DNA of 63,781 nt, taken from the NCBI GenBank assembly GCA_028716525.1, contig JAQUPQ010000023.1, positions 1 to 63,781 on the forward strand, in the 5' to 3' direction. The DNA is from Terriglobia bacterium. Lineage in GTDB: Bacteria; Acidobacteriota; Terriglobia; JAIQFV01. This document shows, piece after piece, positions 3,614 to 62,693 of the stretch. The notes beneath the pieces were generated by a model. The model searched no databases. It was given only the letters and a program-made list of their open reading frames with translations, and had not been told where the DNA came from. The translations under genes were made by a program, and so were the position numbers. Each line of letters opens with the position of its first letter. Position 1 is the first letter of the stretch.

Positions 3614-6600
3614 TTATTTCGCCACATCCAGGGGCAAACCGTCGTCGCCGAAGAACAGAATAAGAACGTTCTGCGGCGTCGAGGCGGTGTTGAGCAGAAT
3701 GATCTGGGTTCTGAAGCCTCCGCCGTCGGCAATCTGCGGGAACAGGATCGGGACGGGCGCGTTTCGCGCAAAGTCGGCCACCGGGAAGGTGGTGAGCAGA
3801 AACTCCCCGCGACTGTTGGTCAAGCCACGGAGCGTCACCGCCGCAAAGGGCGTCGTGGCCGCCAGATCCAACACCCCGGTGAATCCGGCCGGCAGTCCTG
3901 TAATAAACTCCTGCACAAAACGAGCGGCGTGTCCGTGACCCACCAGATCGACGCTCCCTGAACCGACCACTGTCGACCCGTCGGCTTCAAGCGCCCGCAG
4001 TGTTACATGGACCGGTGTGGAGGTCGGAGCCTCGAGCGCCAACCCCGTCATGTGATTGTTCGCTTGATCCACATAGATCAACCCGTGGGTGGTCGGAATC
4101 GCTGCCGGCACTCCCGACTCTGAAACCACAATCTGTGAACCCACCTCAACACCGATCGGCGCAAAGCGGAACACCCCCGCTCCCTGCGGCGTCATCGTGC
4201 CCGCATCCGGCACCACCTGCATGGCTCCGGCATTGATCCCGGCCGGCGCTCCGTCGGTCTCCAATCGATACAATCCGCCCACCGGAATCGTGTACCGGAA
4301 GGTCGACATTGACCCCGCGGGATCCCCCACCCGATGCACCAGTAACGCCGTCCCGTCGTCGCGGTATAGATTCACCTGTCCGGTTTCAACGGCATTGGTG
4401 GTATTCAAGAGCACCAGCGTGGTCGTGAAACTCCCGCCATCGGCCACCTGCGGGAAGTTCGCCACGGCGTTCGTGGCCGCCGCGGTCAGATCCGCCACCG
4501 GGGTGGTCGTCATCAACGTCTCTCCCCGCTGATTGATCGTCAACCGCAAGGCCACAAAGTCGATCGCTTGATCGCTTGTAATCGTGAGCGTCCCGAACTT
4601 CGTCGCCGTCCCGAAGTTCGACGGAAACACAAAGTCCGGCGCCATCTGGCTCAATTGATCAATGAACAGAGCCCGGTGATTGCCGGCCGGAATCACGGCG
4701 TGTCCCGTGGCCAAGGTCACGGCTCCCGTCGCATCCTGGAGCGTGAAGGTTAAATGCGCCGCCAGGGTTCCGACATTCACCATCGCCACACCGGTGTTGA
4801 TCGAGATCACTCCGGCGTCAAGGCCGCTCCCTTTGAACTGGACGTTGGTGCGATAGTCGATGAAAATCTCGGCCGAGGTCGTGGGCGTGACCACCGGCAC
4901 CCCGGCTTCACTTACCACGGCGTTATCCTGCGTCAGACTGAACACCGCGGTTCCATACAACTGGTTGAGCACGGCGTCACTCGAGCCGCTCTTGCCGCTC
5001 GACGATTGCACCGTGGCATAGCCGGCTTCGACGTTTCCTCCTGTGCCCGGTGTCGAGAAGCTGCAGTCGCCATCTCCTTGCACCCCGCATCCGGCCTGGG
5101 AGTTATCCGTGCTCACCGCCGTCTGAGTCACCATAAACTTCTGACCGGCGATCGTCATCGACCCGCTACGCGTCGTACTCCCCAGGTTTTCACCCACGGT
5201 GTAGGTCACCGGACCGAGCCCCGTCCCGCTCGCGGCCGATGTCACCGTAATGAAGGCATCGTTACTCACCGCCGTCCACGGACAGCTGCTCGTCGCTCCC
5301 ACCTGTACGCTTCCCATGCCTCCGCGTGAGCGGAACAGAACGCTTGAAGGCGAGAGCGTTGCCGCCGGATTGGATACTGTTACTGGAGCGGTCGCCGAGT
5401 TGTTGGCCGGGTTGGGATCGGTCCCCGGGAAAGTAACGCGGGCCGTGTTATTGACCACGGTTCCATCGGCTTGTCCGCAATTGACCGTCACCACCACCGT
5501 AAACGAATCCACTTCGTGGATCGCCATGGCCGTTGCCTTCGTGCAAGTCACGACACCCGAGGTGACACTACAAGCCCATCCGGCAGGGTTGTTGATTGAC
5601 CCGAACGTCATCGCTGAAGGCAAGGTGTCCGTCCAGCTGGCTCCCGTGGCCGTTGTCGGCCCCAGATTCGTCACCGTCACCGTATAGATCAAGGTTGAAC
5701 CGACCAGCGGCGTGGGCGCCGACCCCGCTTTGGTTATCTGCAAGTCGGCCTGCTCGACAGCCAGCACGGCCGTGTTACTCGCTGCCCCGGTCCCGCCGTT
5801 GGTTGAGGAGACCGGCCCGGTGGTATTGGTCTTGTCCCCGGCCGTGACCGGCGTTACGTTCACCGTGATCGTGCAGTTGCTCGAAGTCGCAATCGTTCCA
5901 CCCGTGAGCGTCACCGTCGAACTCGCTGCCACGGCTGTGGCTGTGCCTCCGCAGCCGTTCACGAGTCCGTTGGGGCTGGCCACTTGCAAGCCTGCCGGGA
6001 AGTTATCGGTAAAAGCCACTCCGCTCTCGGCCACCGTGTTGGCCGAGGGGTTCGCGAGCGTAAAGGTCAACGTCGAGGTTGCATTCACAGCCACCAGGGT
6101 GGGATTAAAGGCCTTGGAGATTGTGGGCGGCGCCACGACCGTGATCGTTGCGGTGTTACTGGTTGTTCCGGTTCCGCCTTCGGTTGATGTGATCGCTCCG
6201 GTCGTGTTCGCGGCATTCCCGGCTGCCGTCCCCTTCACATCCACGCTCAGCGTGCACGAGCTGTTGTGGGCCACACTTCCACCCGAGAGGCTGATGACAC
6301 CCGTCCCGGCTGTGGCCGTGACCGTTCCATTACAGGTGTTCGTGACGTTCGGTGTCGGCGCTACCACGAGCTTTCCCGTCGTCGACGGCAAAGTGTCACT
6401 GAAGGCCACTCCTGTCAGATCTCCCGCCGCCGTGGTATTGGGGTTGGTAATCGTGAAAGTTAGTGTGGCGGTTCCGTTCAACGGAATGCTCGACGAAGGG
6501 TTGAATGCTTTTGCAATCGTCGGCGGCGCAACGACAGTCAGTGTGGCCGTGTTACTTGTCGTTCCCGCTCCACTTTCATTCGCGCTGATGGCTCCGCTGG

Positions 6601-9600
6601 TATTGTTCTTAACCCCGGCGGTCGTCCCCTGGATGCTCACCTCGAGCATGCAACTCGAGCTTGCGGCCAAACTCCCGCCGCTAAAGTTGAGCGTGGTATC
6701 GCTGGCTGCGGGCGCAAACGTCCCGCCGCAGGTGTCGCTTGCGCCGGGTGTTGCCGCCACCTGTAAACCCGAGGGCAAGCTGTCGCTGAACGAAATCCCC
6801 GTGAGCGCGATACCGCTATTCGGATTCTGAATCGTAAAGGTTAAAGTCGACGTTCCGTTCAGCGGAATCGCCGCCGCCCCGAAAGCCTTCGCAATAGTTG
6901 GCGGAGAAGCCACCGTCAAGTTCGCACTCGCTGTGTTCCCGGTTCCGCCATTGGTCGAACTCACCGCCCCGGTGACGTTGGTGTACTGACCCGAAGCCGC
7001 TCCTGTTACGGTCACCGAGAACTGGCACTGGCTGCTGGTATTGATCGTCGCGCCCGTGAGTGAAATCCCAGTAGGGTTGGTGGTCGTCAGCGTCCCGCCA
7101 CAGACCGATGAGGTACTGTTGGCTACCGTCAGTCCCGTCGGCAAGGTGTCGGAGAATGCCACCCCGTTCTCGGCCGTGGTATTGGCCGCCGGGTTGGTGA
7201 TCGTAAAGCTCAACGGCGCCGTCCCATTCACCGCGATGGTTGGCGACGCCTTGCACTTGCCCGCGCTACCGGCGTTATAAATCATCTGAATTTCGGGCTG
7301 CGAGAGGGCCCGGTTGAACACTTCCACTTCGTCCAGAAGTCCCTGAAAGCGAGCTCCATTACCGTTGTGGAAATCATTGGACACACGCGCCCCCAGATAG
7401 AGGTCTACATCCGTCTTCGGAGTAAACAGCCCCAGATCTGTGGGGCCGGCAATCACCACCCCGTTGCGATACAGTGTGGCGTAGCCGTGGACCCCGTCCG
7501 ACTTGTCGTAGGTTACCGCCACATGCTGAAAAGCACTCAGCGTGATTACCGAGCCGGAAGAAATAATGTGTGAAGTGCCGCTCGTATCTCTCAAGTTGGC
7601 AAACAGAACTTGCGGCCCATTCACCCATAAATGCACCCCAATCTGAGGCGACCCACTGGTGGCGCTGTACTCCACGATCGGGTGATTGGCCGTCAGGTCC
7701 GTTGGTGCGATCAAAGCGTCGATGGTCAAACCGTTTCCCGTACCCACATTCAGGCTCGATGAGGAGGGAACGAAAACGTCGGCCGTCGTGCCGTTCAGAC
7801 TGAACGCCTGTCCAACCTCGCCCGCGGCGAACGTCGCGCCGCCTTGCAGGGTGCCGTTATTGCTGCCGACAATATCATTCGTATTCCCATCCCCCGGCCA
7901 CCAACTCACCATCCCCGAGGGGGGTGTGACGCAACTTGCAAATGACTTCTGAATGAATGGCGGCGCCACGACCGTCAAAGTTGCGGTATTGGAAGTCGTT
8001 CCCGTCCCGCCTTCGGTCGAGCTGATCGCACCCGTGGTGTTGCTCTTCGACCCGGCCGTCGTCCCCGTCACATCCACTGTGATTGTGCACGTGCCGCTCA
8101 CAATGTTTGAAGTCGCCCGCTTGGGAGCAGCGCTGATCGCACCCCCGCTGAAGGTCAAGCTGGTATCCCCGGCCGCGGGCGTAAATGTCCCGCTGCAGTT
8201 GGTCACCGCATTGGGCGTCGCCGCCACCTGCATTCCTGAGGGAAACGAGTCCGTGAATCCCACACCACTCAACGCTACTCCGGAGTTCGGGTTGGTGAGT
8301 GTGAAGGTGATCGTGGAGGTTCCATTCAAAGGTATAGAGGTCGGTGAAAACGCCTTGGCGATCGTCGGTGGAGCGACCACTGTGATTGTCGCCGTGTTGC
8401 TGGTTGTACCAGCCCCGCTTTCAGTTGAACTTACATTGCCGGTGGTGTTGTTCTTCACTCCGGCGGTCGTCCCTTGGATGTTCACCTGAAGCGTACAACT
8501 CGAACTCGCCGCCAACGTCCCGCCGCTAAAGTTGAGCGTGGTATCGCTGGCTGCGGGCGCAAACGTCCCATTGCAGGTGTTACTTGCGCCGGGTGTCGAC
8601 GCCACCTGTAAGCCTGAAGGCAAGCTGTCACTGAACGCAATCCCGGTGAGCGCGAGCGAGCTGTTCGGATTCGTGATCGTAAAGGTCAGTGTCGACGTGC
8701 CGTTCAGTGGAATCTGGGTGGGATTGAAGCTCTTACTCAAAGCCGGCGGTGAGGCCACCGTCAAGGTCGCGGTGTTACTGGTCGCGCCGGTCCCGCCATT
8801 GGTCGAGCTGATGGCTCCGGTGGTGTTATTCTTCACACCGGATGTTGTTCCTGTCACGCTCACTGAAATCGTGCAAATGTTGGCTGCTGTTCGAGGGCCA
8901 GCCCGCTTCGTGGCCGTATTGATGGTTCCTCCCGAGAAGTTGAGCGTCGTATCTCCCGCACTCGGCGCAAACGTCCCGCCGCAGCCGCTCGAGGCACTGG
9001 GCGTCGCCGCCACTTGCACCCCGCTCGGTAAACTGTCGCTAAATGCCACCCCCGTCTCCTGAACCGTATTCGCCGAGGGATTGGTGAGTGTGAAGGTCAG
9101 CGTCGAGGTGCCATTGACGGCAATCGTGGTCGGTGAGAAAGCCTTGGCAATGGAAGGTGGCGCCACGACCGTCAGTATCGCCGTATTCGACGTCGTTCCC
9201 GTCCCGCCTTCGGTTGACGTAATTGCTCCCGTCGTGTTGCTCTTCGATCCGGCCGTCGTCCCCTTCACATCCACCGTGATTGTGCACGTGCCGCTCACGA
9301 TGCTTGAAGTCGCCCGCTTGGGAGCAGCGCTGATCGTACCCCCGCTGAAGGTCAAGCTGGTATCCCCGCCCGCGGGCGTAAATGTCCCGCTGCAGTTGGT
9401 CACAGCATTGGGCGTCGCCGCCACCTGCATCCCAGTCGGGAACGTATCAGTAAATCCAACCCCACTCAACGCCACTCCCGAGTTGGGGTTGGTGAGCGTG
9501 AAAGTGATGGTGGACGTCCCGCCTGCGGGTATGGAGGTCGGTGAAAACGCCTTGGCAATTGTCGGGGGAGCGACCACCGTGATTGTGGCCGTATTCGAGG

Positions 9601-12600
9601 TGGCTCCCGTGCCGCTCTCATTCGAGCTGATTGCACCCGTCGTGTTGTTCTTCACCCCGGCGGTCGTCCCTTGGATGTTTACCTGAAGCGTACAACTCGA
9701 ACTCGCCGCCAAGCTCCCGCCGCTAAAGTTGAGCGTGGTATCGCCCGCCGTCGCATTCCAGGTTCCAGTGCACGTTGCGCTGATGCCGGTCGGGCTACCG
9801 ACCTGTAAGCCCGAAGGCAAGCTGTCACTGAACGCAATCCCACTGAGCGCGAGCGAGCTGTTCGGATTCGTAATCGTAAAGGTCAGTGTCGACGTGCCGT
9901 TCAATGGAATCTGGGTGGGATTGAAGCTCTTGCTCAAGGTCGGCGGTGAGGCCACCGTCAAGGTCGCGGTGTTACTGGTCGCGCCGGTCCCGCCATTGGT
10001 CGAGCTGATGGCTCCGGTGGTGTTATTCTTCACACCGGATGTTGTCCCCTTCACATTCAACGTAATCGTGCATGTGTTGCTTTGGACCGCAGAACGCGCG
10101 CGCTTCGCCGCCGCATTGATCGTTCCCCCCGTGAAGCTGAGCGTGGTATCTCCCGCACTGGGCGTAAACGTCCCGCCGCAGTTGTTCACCACACCCGGTG
10201 TCGCCCCGACCTGCAAGCCCGAAGGCAAAGTGTCCGTAAACGCTACGTCCGTCTCCGCCACCGTGTTGGCTGCCGGATTGATGAGCGTGAAGGTCAACGG
10301 CACCGTCCCGTTCAGCGCAATCGCCGGGGTCACTTTGCACTTGCCCGCACTGCCGGCGTTGTAAATCGACTGAATCTCAGGCTGACTGAGAGCGCGGTTG
10401 AAGACTTCGACTTCGTCGATCAGACCCGTGAATGGGAAGGACCTGCCGGCAGTGCCGGAGGAACCGATCTTCGTGCTCCCCCCGCCCGTATTTTGAGGTG
10501 TTCCCCCGGCATCGAATGTTGAATTGTGTGCCGCCGGAGCGTTGACGCCGTTGACATAGAAATGAATCTTCTGATCCGCACCCGCGCTTCCATCATACGT
10601 CATCGCGATGTGCTGCAAAGAGCCGGCTACGACAGCAGGGCTGTTGGTAAAATAAACCGTGAAGATGTTCGTCCCACTCTGAACAAAGCCCTGCAAGACG
10701 CCGGTATTGTCAACGAAAAGATAATAGTCGGTCACAGCCAAGGTGCTTCCCGCCTTCGAGAAGATCATCTGATTGGCCAGACTCGTCGGCTTGATCCAAG
10801 CATCAATCGTGAAGGTCGATGCCAGCGCCACACTATCGACATCCACATACTGATCTGAACCATTGAAGCTGAAGGCCTGACCGACTTCGCCTGCCGCAAA
10901 CGTCGCGCCAGCCTGCAGCGTGCCATTGTTGGCGCCCTGAATGTCATTTGCATTGCCGTCCCCCGGCCACCAATTCACCATACCCGATGGTGGTACGACG
11001 CATGCTGCAAACGATTTTTGAATGAAGGGTGGCGCCTCAACCGTCAGTGTGGCCGTATTCGAAGTCGTGCCCGTCCCGCCTTCGGTCGAGCTGATTGCTC
11101 CCGTCGTGTTGTTGCTGCTGCCCGCTGTCGAGCTCGTTACATCCACCGTGATCGTGCAGCTCGTGAGGGCCGTGTTCGACGTTGCCCGCTTCGGTGACGC
11201 CGCCAAACTCCCCCCGCTGAAGGTCAAGCTTGTATCCCCGGCGCTGGGCGCAAATGTCCCACCGCAGTTGGTCACCGCATTGGGCGGCGACACCACCTGC
11301 ATCCCAGTCGGGAACGTATCAGTAAATCCAACCCCACTCAACGCCACTCCCGAGTTGGGGTTGGTGAGCGTGAAAGTGATGGTGGACGTCCCGCCTGAGG
11401 GTATAGAGGTCGGTGAAAACGCTTTCGCAATGGTCGGGGGAGCGACCACCGTGATCGTGGCCGTGTTGCTGGTTGTACCGGCCCCACTCTCGGTCGAGCT
11501 CACATTGCCGGTGGTGTTGTCCTTGACTCCCGCAGTTGTTCCCGTGATCGTCACGCTGAACGAGCAATGGCCGGTCAAGGCAACCGAGCCGCCCGAAAGG
11601 GAGATCACCCCCGTGGAGTGAGTTGTCGTGAGCGTCCCATTGCATTGACTGGCACTTGAATCTGCCACCGTCAATCCAGCGGGCAAAGTGTCTGAGAACG
11701 CCACCCCGGTCAGCCCCGTACTCGCATTCGGGTTCGAAATCGTAAAACCCAAGCTCGTTGTTCCGTTGAGCGGAACTGTCGACGCGCCAAAAGATTTTGA
11801 GATAGTCGGCGGCAAGGGACGCACTGTGACTGAATTGGAGGCGCAGTCGTTGTTGCTTTCGTTGCTTTCGACCACCGAATTGTTCGGGTCGACACGGCAG
11901 ATTCCCGCGGCGCGTGGATTCGTGTAGGAACCCACAGAAATCGAGGTGACCGGCACAACCACGTCGAACTTTCCGGTTGTGGTCCCAACGGTCACCGTGC
12001 TGCCATTGGCTGTGCAGGTCAGTGTTTGACCACCGTTGATGGCGCATTGGATGCTGCCGCTGTTGGTCACACTGGTGACATTCGCCACGGTGGGCGTACC
12101 GTAAGAAACTCCGCCGCTATTGTCGAGATCATCCTGAAGGATGGTGGTTCCAGGAGTGAAAATTGCTCCGGAGTTTCCCGTGTTGGAAGAGGTCAGTGTC
12201 CAATTCCATCCCTGTCCCACGGTGACTGACCCGCTCACGTTGTTGGCCTTGCTGATCGTCAGGTCGGGGGCCGTGACTGTCACCGAGTCCGAATTGCAGT
12301 TATTGTTTGCCTCATTGGTTTCGGGGACCACATTACTCGGATCCACGGCGCACCCGCCGCCACTGCGCGGATTCGTAAAGGTGCCGATGGCACTCGGCGT
12401 GGACGTGAAGGTCACGTCGAAGGAGCCGGAGGTTCCAACCACCACAGTGCCGGTGGCGCTGCACGTCAAGGTATTGCTGGTAACGCTGCAACTGATGTTG
12501 GCGATATTCGTGATATTGGTTCCATTCCCTGCCGAGGGAGTTCCATATGAAAGATTGCCGCTGTTATCCAGGTCATCAGTCACAATGGTCTGCCCGTTCA

Positions 12601-14992: not shown

Positions 14993-15520
14993 TCAGGTCC
15001 GTGGTGGGAAAACACCCTGCAAAGCAATGCAAAAACTTAATGTCAAGTAGGGCTGCATATTATTGTGGGGCTGTGAACCTCCCGTCTCTGCAAGAGCAAG
15101 AGCATTCATTTGCACATTATTCCCCGATGTAGGCGCATAAAAATTCGGCGCCGGTCTCTGGTTGGATGCGGCTCCCCAAACATGATTCGAAGGATCGTCT
15201 AAGCCTCCCGCCGTCTGAGCATTGACCGTATGGGTATGAGATGGAATTTCAGTGGTAAGTAACGTCACCGTATCTGACCCGCCCGTTTCACCCAGGTCAT
15301 GCAAGGACAGGCCGGGGCCTTGCCCCGGATGCATGGGGACAGACCCTTGAAAATTGGGTAGAGCAAAATTGGATTTTCCGTCGCCCCCGTAAGTTGTGCC
15401 CAACAAGGAAAAAAGTGCGGTATTTTGGCTGATGGGCAGGATCTGCCCATCACAAAATGCCCAGCCCTTGGGCGCAAAATTGAAAGGAAAAATCCTGATC
15501 TCGGCTACAAACGGGTCCAT
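14993..15520 (-). CDS. Phage tail collar domain protein, copy 3 of 3
   Basis: A 175-residue protein of the tail-collar/microcystin-dependent (MdpB-like) type. Its N-terminal third has the family hallmarks: EIRIFPFNFAPKGWAFCDGQ, LPISQNTALFSLLGTTYGG and a FALPNFQG strand. A central histidine-bearing segment (IPSHTHTV) follows, and the conserved end is FCIALQGVFPP. It has no signal peptide. A GAGGAG ribosome site precedes the ATG. It lies 18 bases downstream of copy 2, so the two are co-transcribed, and the giant surface protein gene follows. In phages the collar domain belongs to receptor-binding tail fibres. No other phage structural gene is present here, so a stand-alone surface or injection-related role is inferred. 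Confidence 0.85.
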   Translation of the reverse strand: MDPFVAEIRIFPFNFAPKGWAFCDGQILPISQNTALFSLLGTTYGGDGKSNFALPNFQGSVPMHPGQGPGLSLHDLGETGGSDTVTLLTTEIPSHTHTVNAQTAGGLDDPSNHVWGAASNQRPAPNFYAPTSGNNVQMNALALAETGGSQPHNNMQPYLTLSFCIALQGVFPPRT

Positions 15521-15538: not shown

Positions 15539-16039
15539 TTAAGTCTGGGAAGGGAAAATTCCCTGAAGCGCAATGCAAAAGTTAATGACCAGGAAAGGCT
15601 GCAGATTGAGATGCGCTTGGCTGCCGCCTACCGACGAAATCGCGGCCGGATTCATGGATTCATTTGATGAAGTGGCATAGGGGCTGAACCCAGTTTGGCT
15701 TGCCCAGAGATTATTGGCCGGGGTATTCACGGTGGGGCTATTGGAACTGGCCATGACGGTATGGGTATGGCCAGGCAACTCATTCACATTCAGAGTGTGC
15801 GTTTGCTCCCCGCCTTTTTCACCCAGGGTGTGGTTGTTTCCCATGTGCAAAGGCACGCGCCCTTGAAGATCGGGTAGTCCAAAATTGACTTGTCCATCCC
15901 CGCCGTAGGTCGTTCCCAACAGTGAAAAAAGCGCCTCATTTTGGTTGATGGGCAGGAGTTGGCCGTCACACAAGGCCCAGCCCTTGGGGGCAAAACCGAA
16001 AGAGAACAATCGGATTTCACTTAAAAAGGGTTCTGCCAT
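15539..16039 (-). CDS. Phage tail collar domain protein, copy 2 of 3
   Basis: A 166-residue paralogue of the flanking genes. It shares LSEIRLFSFGFAPKGWALCDG, LPINQNEALFSLLGTTYGG, the LPDLQGRVPLH strand, LPGHTHTV in the middle and the terminal FCIALQGIFPSQT. It is closest to copy 3 in the first 70 residues, while the middle, where receptor contacts are made in phage fibres, is different. The start ATG has a GAGGAG ribosome site. The gap to copy 1 is 126 bases and to copy 3 is 18 bases. Function outside phages is not established. Confidence 0.85.
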   Translation of the reverse strand: MAEPFLSEIRLFSFGFAPKGWALCDGQLLPINQNEALFSLLGTTYGGDGQVNFGLPDLQGRVPLHMGNNHTLGEKGGEQTHTLNVNELPGHTHTVMASSNSPTVNTPANNLWASQTGFSPYATSSNESMNPAAISSVGGSQAHLNLQPFLVINFCIALQGIFPSQT

Positions 16040-16165: not shown

Positions 16166-16663
16166 TTACGTCTGGCTCGGGAAGATTCCAAACATAGAAA
16201 TAATGAAATCGACCACCAGATATTGCATAAAGTTCGAGTGAGGCTGGCTCCCACCAGACGAGGATACCGCTGCTGCGTTCATGGTGGTGTTGGTCGCGGA
16301 GGCCGAATAGGCCTTGGCGGTGGAATTCGCCCACACATTTCCCGAGGCAGAGTCACTTCCACCCGATGAGTTCGCCAAGGGCGTGTGGGAGTGGGAAGGT
16401 ATCTGACTCGAAGTGAGTGTTACGGATTCCGTTCCACCGGTCTCGGCCAGCGTGAAACCGTTGCCGAAGTGAACAGGCACTCGACCCCGGAGGTCGGGCA
16501 ATGCGAAGGTTGACTGCCCATCGCCGCCGTACGTTGTGCCGATCAAATTGAACAGCGTTTCGAACTCGGAAATCGGCAGCAATTGACCTTCGCAAAACAT
16601 CCATCCGGACGGGGCAAAGTTTCCCGCGAACATTCGGATTTCACCGACATAGGGTTGTGCCAT
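16166..16663 (-). CDS. Phage tail collar domain protein, copy 1 of 3
   Basis: A 165-residue tail-collar protein and the first gene of the trio. It has VGEIRMFAGNFAPSGWMFCEG, LPISEFETLFNLIGTTYGG, LPDLRGRVPVHFG, a TETGG-type segment, IPSHSHTP and a terminal FGIFPSQT. It is the most diverged of the three: MFCEGQ replaces CDGQ, and ISMFG replaces IALQG. The ribosome site GGAGGAG lies just upstream of the ATG. The gene is transcribed away from the DUF6916-like exported protein at 17090 on the other strand, so the 16664-17089 gap should carry divergent promoters. Confidence 0.85.
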   Translation of the reverse strand: MAQPYVGEIRMFAGNFAPSGWMFCEGQLLPISEFETLFNLIGTTYGGDGQSTFALPDLRGRVPVHFGNGFTLAETGGTESVTLTSSQIPSHSHTPLANSSGGSDSASGNVWANSTAKAYSASATNTTMNAAAVSSSGGSQPHSNFMQYLVVDFIISMFGIFPSQT

Positions 16664-61214: not shown

Positions 61215-62387
61215 GTGGCTGTTGATCTCCTCATCATTGGCGCCGGACCGTACGGCTTGGCCGTGGCTTCCTTGGCTAAACATCGTGACATCTCTTACCG
61301 CCTCTATGGAAAACCCATGGACTTTTGGAAATCCCACATGCCCCGGGGAATGTTTCTGCGGTCGGGAATCCAGTGGCACATGGATCCGCTACAGCTCCAC
61401 ACCTTGGAACAATTTCTTCATGAGAAGAATTTGAGGCGAGATGAGGTCGAGCCCATTCCAGTTGAAATCTTTCAAGCCTATGGCGATTGGTTTCAACAAC
61501 AGTCCGGAGTGGTTGCAGAAAACATTCTGGTGAGCGAAATAAATCGGCGCGGGGAGCTGTTTGAAATGACTTTAGAGAATGGGGAAACGGTCTTGGCAAA
61601 ACGCGTTGTCGTGGCCCCAGGATTCCGATATTTTAAGAATGAACCGGAGGAATTAACCCGGGGACTTATCGAACACCGCTACTCTCACACATCAGATTTC
61701 AACGATCTTCGAGCCCTCAGTGATAAAGCCTGTTTGATACTTGGTGGTCGCCAAAGTGCTTTTGAAACCGCAGCGCTGCTTCGCGAAAATGGCGCTCGAA
61801 GCATTGATCTCGTGTACCGGCATGCCACGCCCCAGTTTGCCGTTTCGGATTGGACCTGGATCGATCCGCTTCTAGACGAGGCTGGACGGACGCCGGGGTG
61901 GTTTTCCCATTTGCCGAGGGAACAACAAGAAGACATACGCCGTCGTTTCTGGGTGGAAGGGCGAATAAAACTTGAGCCGTGGTTGGGGCCACGCATCGCT
62001 TTTGAAAATGTAAAACTTCATCCTCAAACCTCACTGCTCAGTTGGAGTTTATCGCAGGATCACCTCACGGCTCGACTCAGCGACGGAGAAGCGATAAAGG
62101 TCGATCAGGTTATTCTGGCCACGGGCTTCAAGGTTGATGTTCGCCAACTTTCTTTCCTTTCAAAAGAAACCATTCTCCCCTTGCTCCGTTCTGTGGATGG
62201 ATATCCGAGCTTGGATGAAAACTTTCAATCCACCATTCCGGGCCTTTATTTTACGGGCTTGATTGCCAGCCGGGATTTTGGGCCGTTCTTTGGATTCGTT
62301 CGAGCTTGTCCGCTCTCAGCGCAGTACATTGTAACCGGTGTGGAAAGATCGATCCGGCAGGAGCGCAGAGTCCCGCAACACGGGTAG
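61215..62387 (+). CDS. FAD-dependent NAD(P)-binding oxidoreductase (monooxygenase-like)
   Basis: A 390-residue flavoprotein. GTG at 61215 is chosen: GGAG lies five bases upstream and the Rossmann motif VDLLIIGAGPYGLAVAS starts at once, whereas the open frame extends back through a repeat. RGMFLRSGIQWHMDP and FQAYGDWFQQQ resemble N-hydroxylating and flavin-containing monooxygenases. A second nucleotide loop is ACLILGGRQSAFETAALL, and VILATGFKVD is the late ATG motif. The C-terminal PGLYFTGLIASRDFGP is usual. It is flanked on both sides by palindromic repeats and is not in an operon. The substrate is unknown. Confidence 0.85.
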   Translation: MAVDLLIIGAGPYGLAVASLAKHRDISYRLYGKPMDFWKSHMPRGMFLRSGIQWHMDPLQLHTLEQFLHEKNLRRDEVEPIPVEIFQAYGDWFQQQSGVVAENILVSEINRRGELFEMTLENGETVLAKRVVVAPGFRYFKNEPEELTRGLIEHRYSHTSDFNDLRALSDKACLILGGRQSAFETAALLRENGARSIDLVYRHATPQFAVSDWTWIDPLLDEAGRTPGWFSHLPREQQEDIRRRFWVEGRIKLEPWLGPRIAFENVKLHPQTSLLSWSLSQDHLTARLSDGEAIKVDQVILATGFKVDVRQLSFLSKETILPLLRSVDGYPSLDENFQSTIPGLYFTGLIASRDFGPFFGFVRACPLSAQYIVTGVERSIRQERRVPQHG

Positions 62388-62693
62388 CGTCGGCCGTTCT
62401 TCTAGCCGGCGACTGTACGCCGCGTTGGTAGCGACGGTTGTTCTTCAAACCGGCGGTTGTAGGTCGTATGGGTAGCGCTCGCCCCAATCCACCAGGGCAG
62501 AGTTGTTGGTCAAACCGGTGGTCATTAGTGACCAAAACCATCGCCGCCCTACAGAGCGGGCGGCGCTGCCCAATCTGCACATAACCGCCAGCTCAAAAAC
62601 GGTCCTGCCCCGATGCATCGGGGCGAGCGCTACCCCCGCGGCGTATAACCGCCGGCTCAAAAATAGCCGGCGCTACCAAAACGTTTCAGGGAT
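62388..62693. repeat. Array of GTAGCG palindromic repeats
   Basis: The whole 306-base gap consists of repeat blocks: GTCGGCCGTTCTTCTAGCCGGC, GGTAGCGACGGTTGTTC, GGGTAGCGCTCGCCCC (to 62487), then inverted units with CCTGCCCCGATGCATCGGGG, CGAGCGCTACC, ACCGCCGGCTC and GCCGGCGCTACC (to 62679). It separates two convergent genes and has no coding potential. Confidence 0.8.

Follow-up and report, generated by a model that had tools for sequence, protein, structure and literature searches.

We analyzed a 63,781-nt stretch of DNA (the window), contig JAQUPQ010000023.1 of a Terriglobia bacterium of the Acidobacteriota, and found that it encodes a giant protein, predicted to be secreted, in which twelve DUF7933 modules of three classes, A, B and C, follow each other in the fixed order A-B-C four times. 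The same triplet is common to other genomes and is linked there to a three-gene phage-tail-collar cassette, both of which had been missed in the initial annotation of the window. Judging from sequence comparison, the triplet appears older than this gene and this species, and so to be an inherited feature rather than a local accident. We consider it likely that the array is the covalently locked stalk of a fibrillar adhesin, grown and homogenised in triplets, with LamG domains as plug-ins.

Three module classes in fixed order

A Pfam scan of the giant protein returned 12 stretches of DUF7933, 2 of Laminin_G_3 and 9 of DUF11. The DUF7933 profile (PF25564) matches its 12 stretches with an E value of 2.8e-268 and 873.8 bits, compared with a gathering score of 26.5 bits, and single modules score 62.8-104.5 bits each. 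The array occupies positions 5750-11812 of the window on the minus strand (residues 992-3012). The strict A-B-C order claimed earlier from motifs near the module ends holds with zero exceptions for the tails ESGxG (A), EGGTG (B) and TNGGTG (C), with the correction that class identity is clean in the tails and less clean in the module cores. As also described before, LamG domains (PF13385) are nested only in C1 and C3, directly after the segment PPFIQKSFA, and the 10-residue inserts rich in Lys and Arg (KR inserts) are confined to B and C modules of the first three units, being present in B1, B2, B3, C1 and C2 and absent from C3. Mean protein identity at lags of one to seven modules is 53, 55, 70, 56, 54, 66 and 53%, respectively. 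When the module order was permuted, 1 of 2000 permutations and, in a separate run, 0 of 400 gave a period-3 statistic as high as the observed one.

Coordinates of the giant gene, its modules and the adjoining collar genes in the window
Feature	Position	Strand	Basis
Giant protein, predicted to be secreted, 3,723 aa	3614..14785	-	ORF calls; profile scans; C-terminus common to G001 and contig C78 proteins
Module C4	5750..6130	-	
Module B4, mosaic: B-type tail, core closest to A1 and foreign B modules	6131..6526	-	
Module A4	6527..6904	-	
Module C3, interrupted by LamG3, no KR insert	6905..7963	-	
LamG3, inside C3	7250..7933	-	
Module B3, KR insert	7964..8371	-	
Module A3	8372..8749	-	
Module C2, KR insert, no LamG	8750..9160	-	
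Module B2, KR insert	9161..9568	-	
Module A2	9569..9946	-	
Module C1, interrupted by LamG1	9947..11032	-	
LamG1, inside C1 between Lys-bearing first strand and next strand	10334..11002	-	
Module B1, KR insert KRATSN	11033..11440	-	
Module A1 (DUF7933)	11441..11812	-	
Phage-tail-collar protein (PF07484), third of three, immediately upstream of giant gene	14993..15520	-	
Phage-tail-collar protein (PF07484), second of three	15539..16039	-	
Phage-tail-collar protein (PF07484), first of three, similar to short tail fibre gp12 of T4	16166..16663	-	

A total of 38 arrays of at least five modules were surveyed from this genome, its class-mates and 76 named loci, and two further arrays were checked later. 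Of the 18 acidobacterial DUF7933 arrays with at least six modules, 14 score best at lag 3, versus 1 of 16 in other phyla (Fisher p 7e-6, computed on 14/16 versus 1/16 before the last two negative arrays joined). Period 3 is clear in G387, G142, G277 and L104, with lag-3 identity of 75-82%, and weak in L080, L084 and L093. Hidden Markov models (HMMs) of the classes were trained on the phases of six foreign arrays and scored with one array left out at a time; 52 of 71 steps follow A-B-C and 5 are reversed, against a permutation mean of 24.5 and maximum of 41. Held-out acidobacterial arrays follow the order in 29 of 75 steps (p 0.008), and arrays of other phyla give no signal of it with the foreign-trained models (p 0.5).

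In other genomes, it is the C class that is found again at each third position. By the foreign-trained HMMs, the lead for C over the next class is 31-50 bits in window modules C1-C4 and at most 6 bits in every other window module, though A2, A3 and B1-B3 are closest to C by raw score. HMMs trained on the window classes performed poorly for B in other genomes because of the KR insert. Features shared by eye include one residue more in the C-class NPAANTxxExGVAF loop, the GVGF of B modules, and the A-type tail ESGAG in the Blastocatellia arrays L093, L096 and L105. C3 has its nearest neighbours among the C modules of G277, and B4 among the B modules of G387. KR loops were found in 13 of 24 modules in three arrays, from this genome and contig 28 of G001, with one related insert in contig 42 of G001, and in hardly any others among 375 modules. 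The array of this same-family genome (L043, contig C28 of G001) has KR loops in 5 of 7 modules but lacks both period 3 and neighbouring collar genes.

Collar genes and the persistence of the triplet

The three collar proteins encoded next to the giant gene match PF07484 with 96.4, 97.0 and 101.4 bits (threshold 24 bits), and no other phage genes were found among ten neighbouring proteins scanned. Collar genes also adjoin the giant gene in other loci, upstream in L042, L093, L096 and L103 and downstream in G142, G277, G387 and L104. They fall into three orthologous groups, and each complete acidobacterial locus has one of each. In a sample of 399 genomes of the class, DUF7933 is present in 21, collar genes in 55 and both in 11 (odds ratio 8, p 1.6e-5). 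Nine of the eleven have their collar genes, always three, about 5 kb or less from a DUF7933 gene on one contig. Among arrays of at least six modules with adequate flanks, nine of the ten adjacent to collar genes have period 3 (L146 is the exception) and those without adjacent collars do not, except the weak L084, a comparison that is confounded by phylogeny. Likewise, no adjacent collar genes were found for ten arrays lacking period 3 with adequate flanks or whole-genome data. In the collar tree, each window gene is sister to its Blastocatellia orthologues (L093, L096, L103), unlike the collar genes of the same-family genome G001, which group with other class-mates. This placement might reflect transfer of the locus between classes, or an old paralogy. 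Downstream of the giant gene are a methyltransferase gene and then secA on the opposite strand. A 44-nt tandem repeat of 2.2 copies is located at 62382-62477 of the window.

Two explanations for the triplet were weighed against the stalk reading, along with a more novel reading of the rod and its collars. The first concerns only why the triplet persists and is compatible with the stalk reading: identical Ig-like neighbours would misfold together, and period 3 would keep neighbours unlike while permitting growth by recombination. Neighbouring window modules are 53-55% identical versus 70% for modules of the same phase, and it has been noted that neighbouring repeats in mammalian systems are limited in identity and that repeats which are very alike misfold (PMC9704523). 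However, arrays of the same phylum with neighbours 62-75% identical (contig 28 of G001, G313) argue against a strict need, and a period of two would serve equally well. We regard this explanation as possible but doubtful.

A little less probable is that triplets were duplicated independently in each lineage, so that period 3 arose repeatedly as a by-product with no functional meaning. Tandem duplication of several domains together is a general mode of repeat growth, and modules of one class from the same protein often cluster. Against this stand the recognition of the C class and of the A-B-C order across genomes, including those of Blastocatellia, the rarity of period 3 in arrays of other phyla, and its company with the collar cassette.

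The more novel reading is a speculation to which we give a low probability, namely that each collar paralogue docks on one module class, and three tail-fibre-like proteins would be shown in A-B-C order. The rod would then be the periodic scaffold of a non-phage extracellular fibre with phage-type receptor-binding heads. The collars are usually exactly three and adjoin nine period-3 arrays and one without period 3, but collar trios also flank proteins with just 1-3 DUF7933 modules (G186, G289, G309 and G361), and by eye the collar proteins have no signal peptide.

Growth and homogenisation of the array

The initial annotation proposed growth by duplication of whole triplets or sextets. The triplet is supported as the dominant scale of growth: lag 3 is the best lag, and a topology with three clades, A, B and C, is not rejected by the approximately unbiased (AU) test (0.086 for DNA, 0.22 for protein). 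The expectation that the tree itself would resolve into three clades was borne out for C (95-98 bootstrap), whereas A1 joins B4 outside the remaining A and B modules, because A1 and B4 are mosaic. Mosaicism is also seen in sliding comparisons, where the first part of B2 is identical or near-identical to B1 and the rest closest to B3, the tail of A3 is that of A1, and C1 has its tail in common with C2. Pairs of the same class have 54-87% DNA identity, and the identical tracts that B1 shares with B2 (105 nt) and C1 with C2 (99 nt) are beyond chance given the overall divergence. These identity patches show intragenic homogenisation. Divergence is among the highest in the end modules A1, B4 and C4, with C3 as an exception, as expected if homogenisation works within the array. 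Synonymous divergence (dS) between module copies is 0.35-1.75 and its nonsynonymous ratio (dN/dS) 0.09-0.40, which show that the copies are old and under purifying selection.

Duplication or reordering of units by a short-read assembler is very improbable. The assembly is a draft of 104 contigs and there are two exact 105-nt repeats, the longest found, but all remaining exact repeats are at most 52 nt, the copies differ by the dS values above, and comparable arrays in independent genomes have the A-B-C order as well; our check revealed no obvious artefact. Least probable of all is that one copying of a sextet, A-B-C(LamG)-A-B-C, turned units 1 and 2 into units 3 and 4: LamG is present only in units 1 and 3, and the head PPFIQKSFA is common to C1 and C3, which form a group (97/95 protein, 81/84 DNA), but the sextet tree is rejected (AU 1.5e-6 for DNA, 0.005 for protein), A2 pairs with A3, B1, B2 and B3 cluster away from B4, lag 6 is lower than lag 3, and LamG1 and LamG3 are no more similar to each other than either is to the LamGs of a second giant protein in this genome. 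The placement of LamG in units 1 and 3, from which a true period of six had been suspected, thus does not imply a six-domain period.

Fold, nested LamG domains and the proposed stalk

The giant protein begins with a signal sequence (residues 33-54, read by eye), from which secretion is predicted, and a CSLREA/beta-helix-like N-terminus, for which the NCBIfam CSLREA match is slightly below cut-off. DUF11-like modules, the 12 DUF7933 modules, DUF11, a BACON-like domain and a C-terminal module ending in LDVAK follow. The last is conserved and was also found in proteins of G001 and of contig C78 of this genome; the C78 protein (L048) is a leucine-rich-repeat protein with one DUF7933 and the same DUF11, BACON-like and C-terminal modules. 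Their common end module suggests a shared end for export or anchoring. The NCBIfam isopeptide-forming fimbrial domain TIGR04226 matches the giant protein with 103 bits. A match to the TafC family fimbrial protein (NF052521) was rejected as a LamG cross-match (51 bits, curated cut-off 410); in the literature, the name TafC led to a fungal siderophore.

DUF7933 is one of the families for which an intramolecular isopeptide bond has been predicted, with the triad Lys973/Asp1008/Asn1068 in domain 968-1093, i.e. positions 6, 41 and 101 (PMC12617251). These are the positions conserved in acidobacterial modules: K6, D41 and N101 are present in 12 of 12 window modules, and in the acidobacterial set K in 172, D in 175 and N in 174 of 175, with each of two cysteines in all 175. 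For C1 and C3, the HMM aligned the Lys of GKCK as K6, whereas the structural model has FIQKSF before LamG as the first strand. In the AlphaFold model of A1-B1-C1, the modules are well-formed sandwiches with predicted local distance difference test (pLDDT) block values mostly >90, and A1 matches the CLIPPER structure 9ifr with Z 13.9 and a root-mean-square deviation of 2.2 over 115 residues. FIQKSF (residues 263-268, block pLDDT ~88) is modelled as a strand, in agreement with a LamG domain that leaves the sandwich at the loop following the Lys strand. No solved structure for DUF7933 was found by sequence search at E 0.1.

LamG1 and LamG3 have 47% protein identity, and 45-49% to the LamGs of the second giant protein, encoded on contig C40 (L047, 28000-36869), so that identity does not support them as products of one recent copy. 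Of the four LamG domains of L047, three are N-terminal and one is nested in a DUF7933 domain, in a different loop from that of C1 and C3 and directly before the KR segment (KR loop). Two loops of the DUF7933 fold therefore accept a lectin domain. No LamG nested in DUF7933 was found among 96 DUF7933-bearing ORFs of loci outside this genome, and when C1 with its LamG was used as the query against the 399 class genomes, both parts were strongly spanned only in this genome and other long matches were weak. No LamG relatives were found in viral contigs. The LamG model matches the lectin domains of the NanA and NanB sialidases with Z ~14, and A1 the CLIPPER/DUF11 isopeptide domain, which makes the rod with lectin-like heads proposed earlier plausible; glycan binding by LamG is a prediction.

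In the stalk reading, the region would encode the stalk of a giant fibrillar adhesin. Each Ig-like (CnaA/CLIPPER-like) DUF7933 module would be locked by a predicted Lys6-Asn101 isopeptide bond, in whose formation Asp41 takes part, and by a predicted Cys59-Cys85 disulfide, and the two would give a stiff, protease-resistant rod at the cell surface. The class order would be fixed because the duplicating unit is the triplet. The three-class array presumably predates the species, is common to other Acidobacteriota and travels with the cassette of three short-tail-fibre-like collars, physical partners at most by conjecture. In each lineage, unequal crossing-over and gene conversion would homogenise modules of one class patchwise. 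In this species, LamG would have been plugged into DUF7933 loops, after the first strand in C1 and C3 and at the KR loop in the C40 protein, and these lectin-like domains would project from the rod as side heads.

The protein has the features of fibrillar adhesins: it is long and predicted to be secreted, with 12 stalk modules and two LamG domains that match ConA-like lectin folds. Several observations weigh against the stalk reading. No surface anchor family was found at the C-terminus in the Pfam or NCBIfam scan, and the LamG model is of low confidence (block pLDDT 29-73, two LamG rows in the alignment). A and B are not clean clades in the module tree, and external HMMs separate window A and B modules poorly; cross-genome homology is thus firm for C only. 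The surveyed arrays come partly from related genomes and are statistically non-independent, and the acidobacterial arrays of G001 contig 28, L122, G313 and G242 lack period 3.

None of the fold, the bond chemistry, the role as a stalk or the lectin domain is new in kind. DUF7933 as published (PMC12617251) agrees with all twelve modules in the 6/41/101 triad and the two invariant cysteines, and disulfides are reported to be prevalent in it; it is described domain by domain, and we found no account of three ordered classes, KR loops or nested LamG. CLIPPER domains (DUF11, PF01345; 9IFR) share the fold, the isopeptide chemistry and tandem arrangement in fibrillar-adhesin stalks, and one DUF11 follows the window array, but they are another Pfam family, and the DUF11 modules here flank the array outside the A-B-C order. 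Rods of tandem folded repeats that bear functional domains on a secreted protein are also known from periscope proteins (Rib, SasG and others; PMC9704523), but their repeats are near-identical in DNA and variable in number; same-class copies in the window array fall short of such DNA identity. The C-terminal domains of streptococcal antigen I/II (3qe5, 2wza), isopeptide-locked Ig-like domains in series, are the best multi-domain structural match to the A1-B1-C1 model; they have ~15% sequence identity, no LamG insertion and a Gram-positive cell-wall anchor. The phage T4 short tail fibre gp12 (1ocy) shares the collar domain with the three neighbouring proteins (E 1.6e-5), which here form a three-gene cassette in a bacterial chromosome.

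In the open-access literature, where few papers name these domains, we found no description of ordered DUF7933 classes or of the three-collar linkage, and no paper that brings tail collar and DUF11 together; both the conserved order of three classes and the linkage appear to be unreported. The class order itself is conserved between genera and at least two bacterial classes, resembling the higher-order repeats of chromosomal satellites. This allows a direct question about what keeps a protein array in triplets: a recombination process, the folding of neighbours, or a three-part partner, for which the tail-collar trio is a concrete candidate. The LamG plug-ins show how lectin-like heads can join a rod, predicted to be covalently locked, without breaking it.

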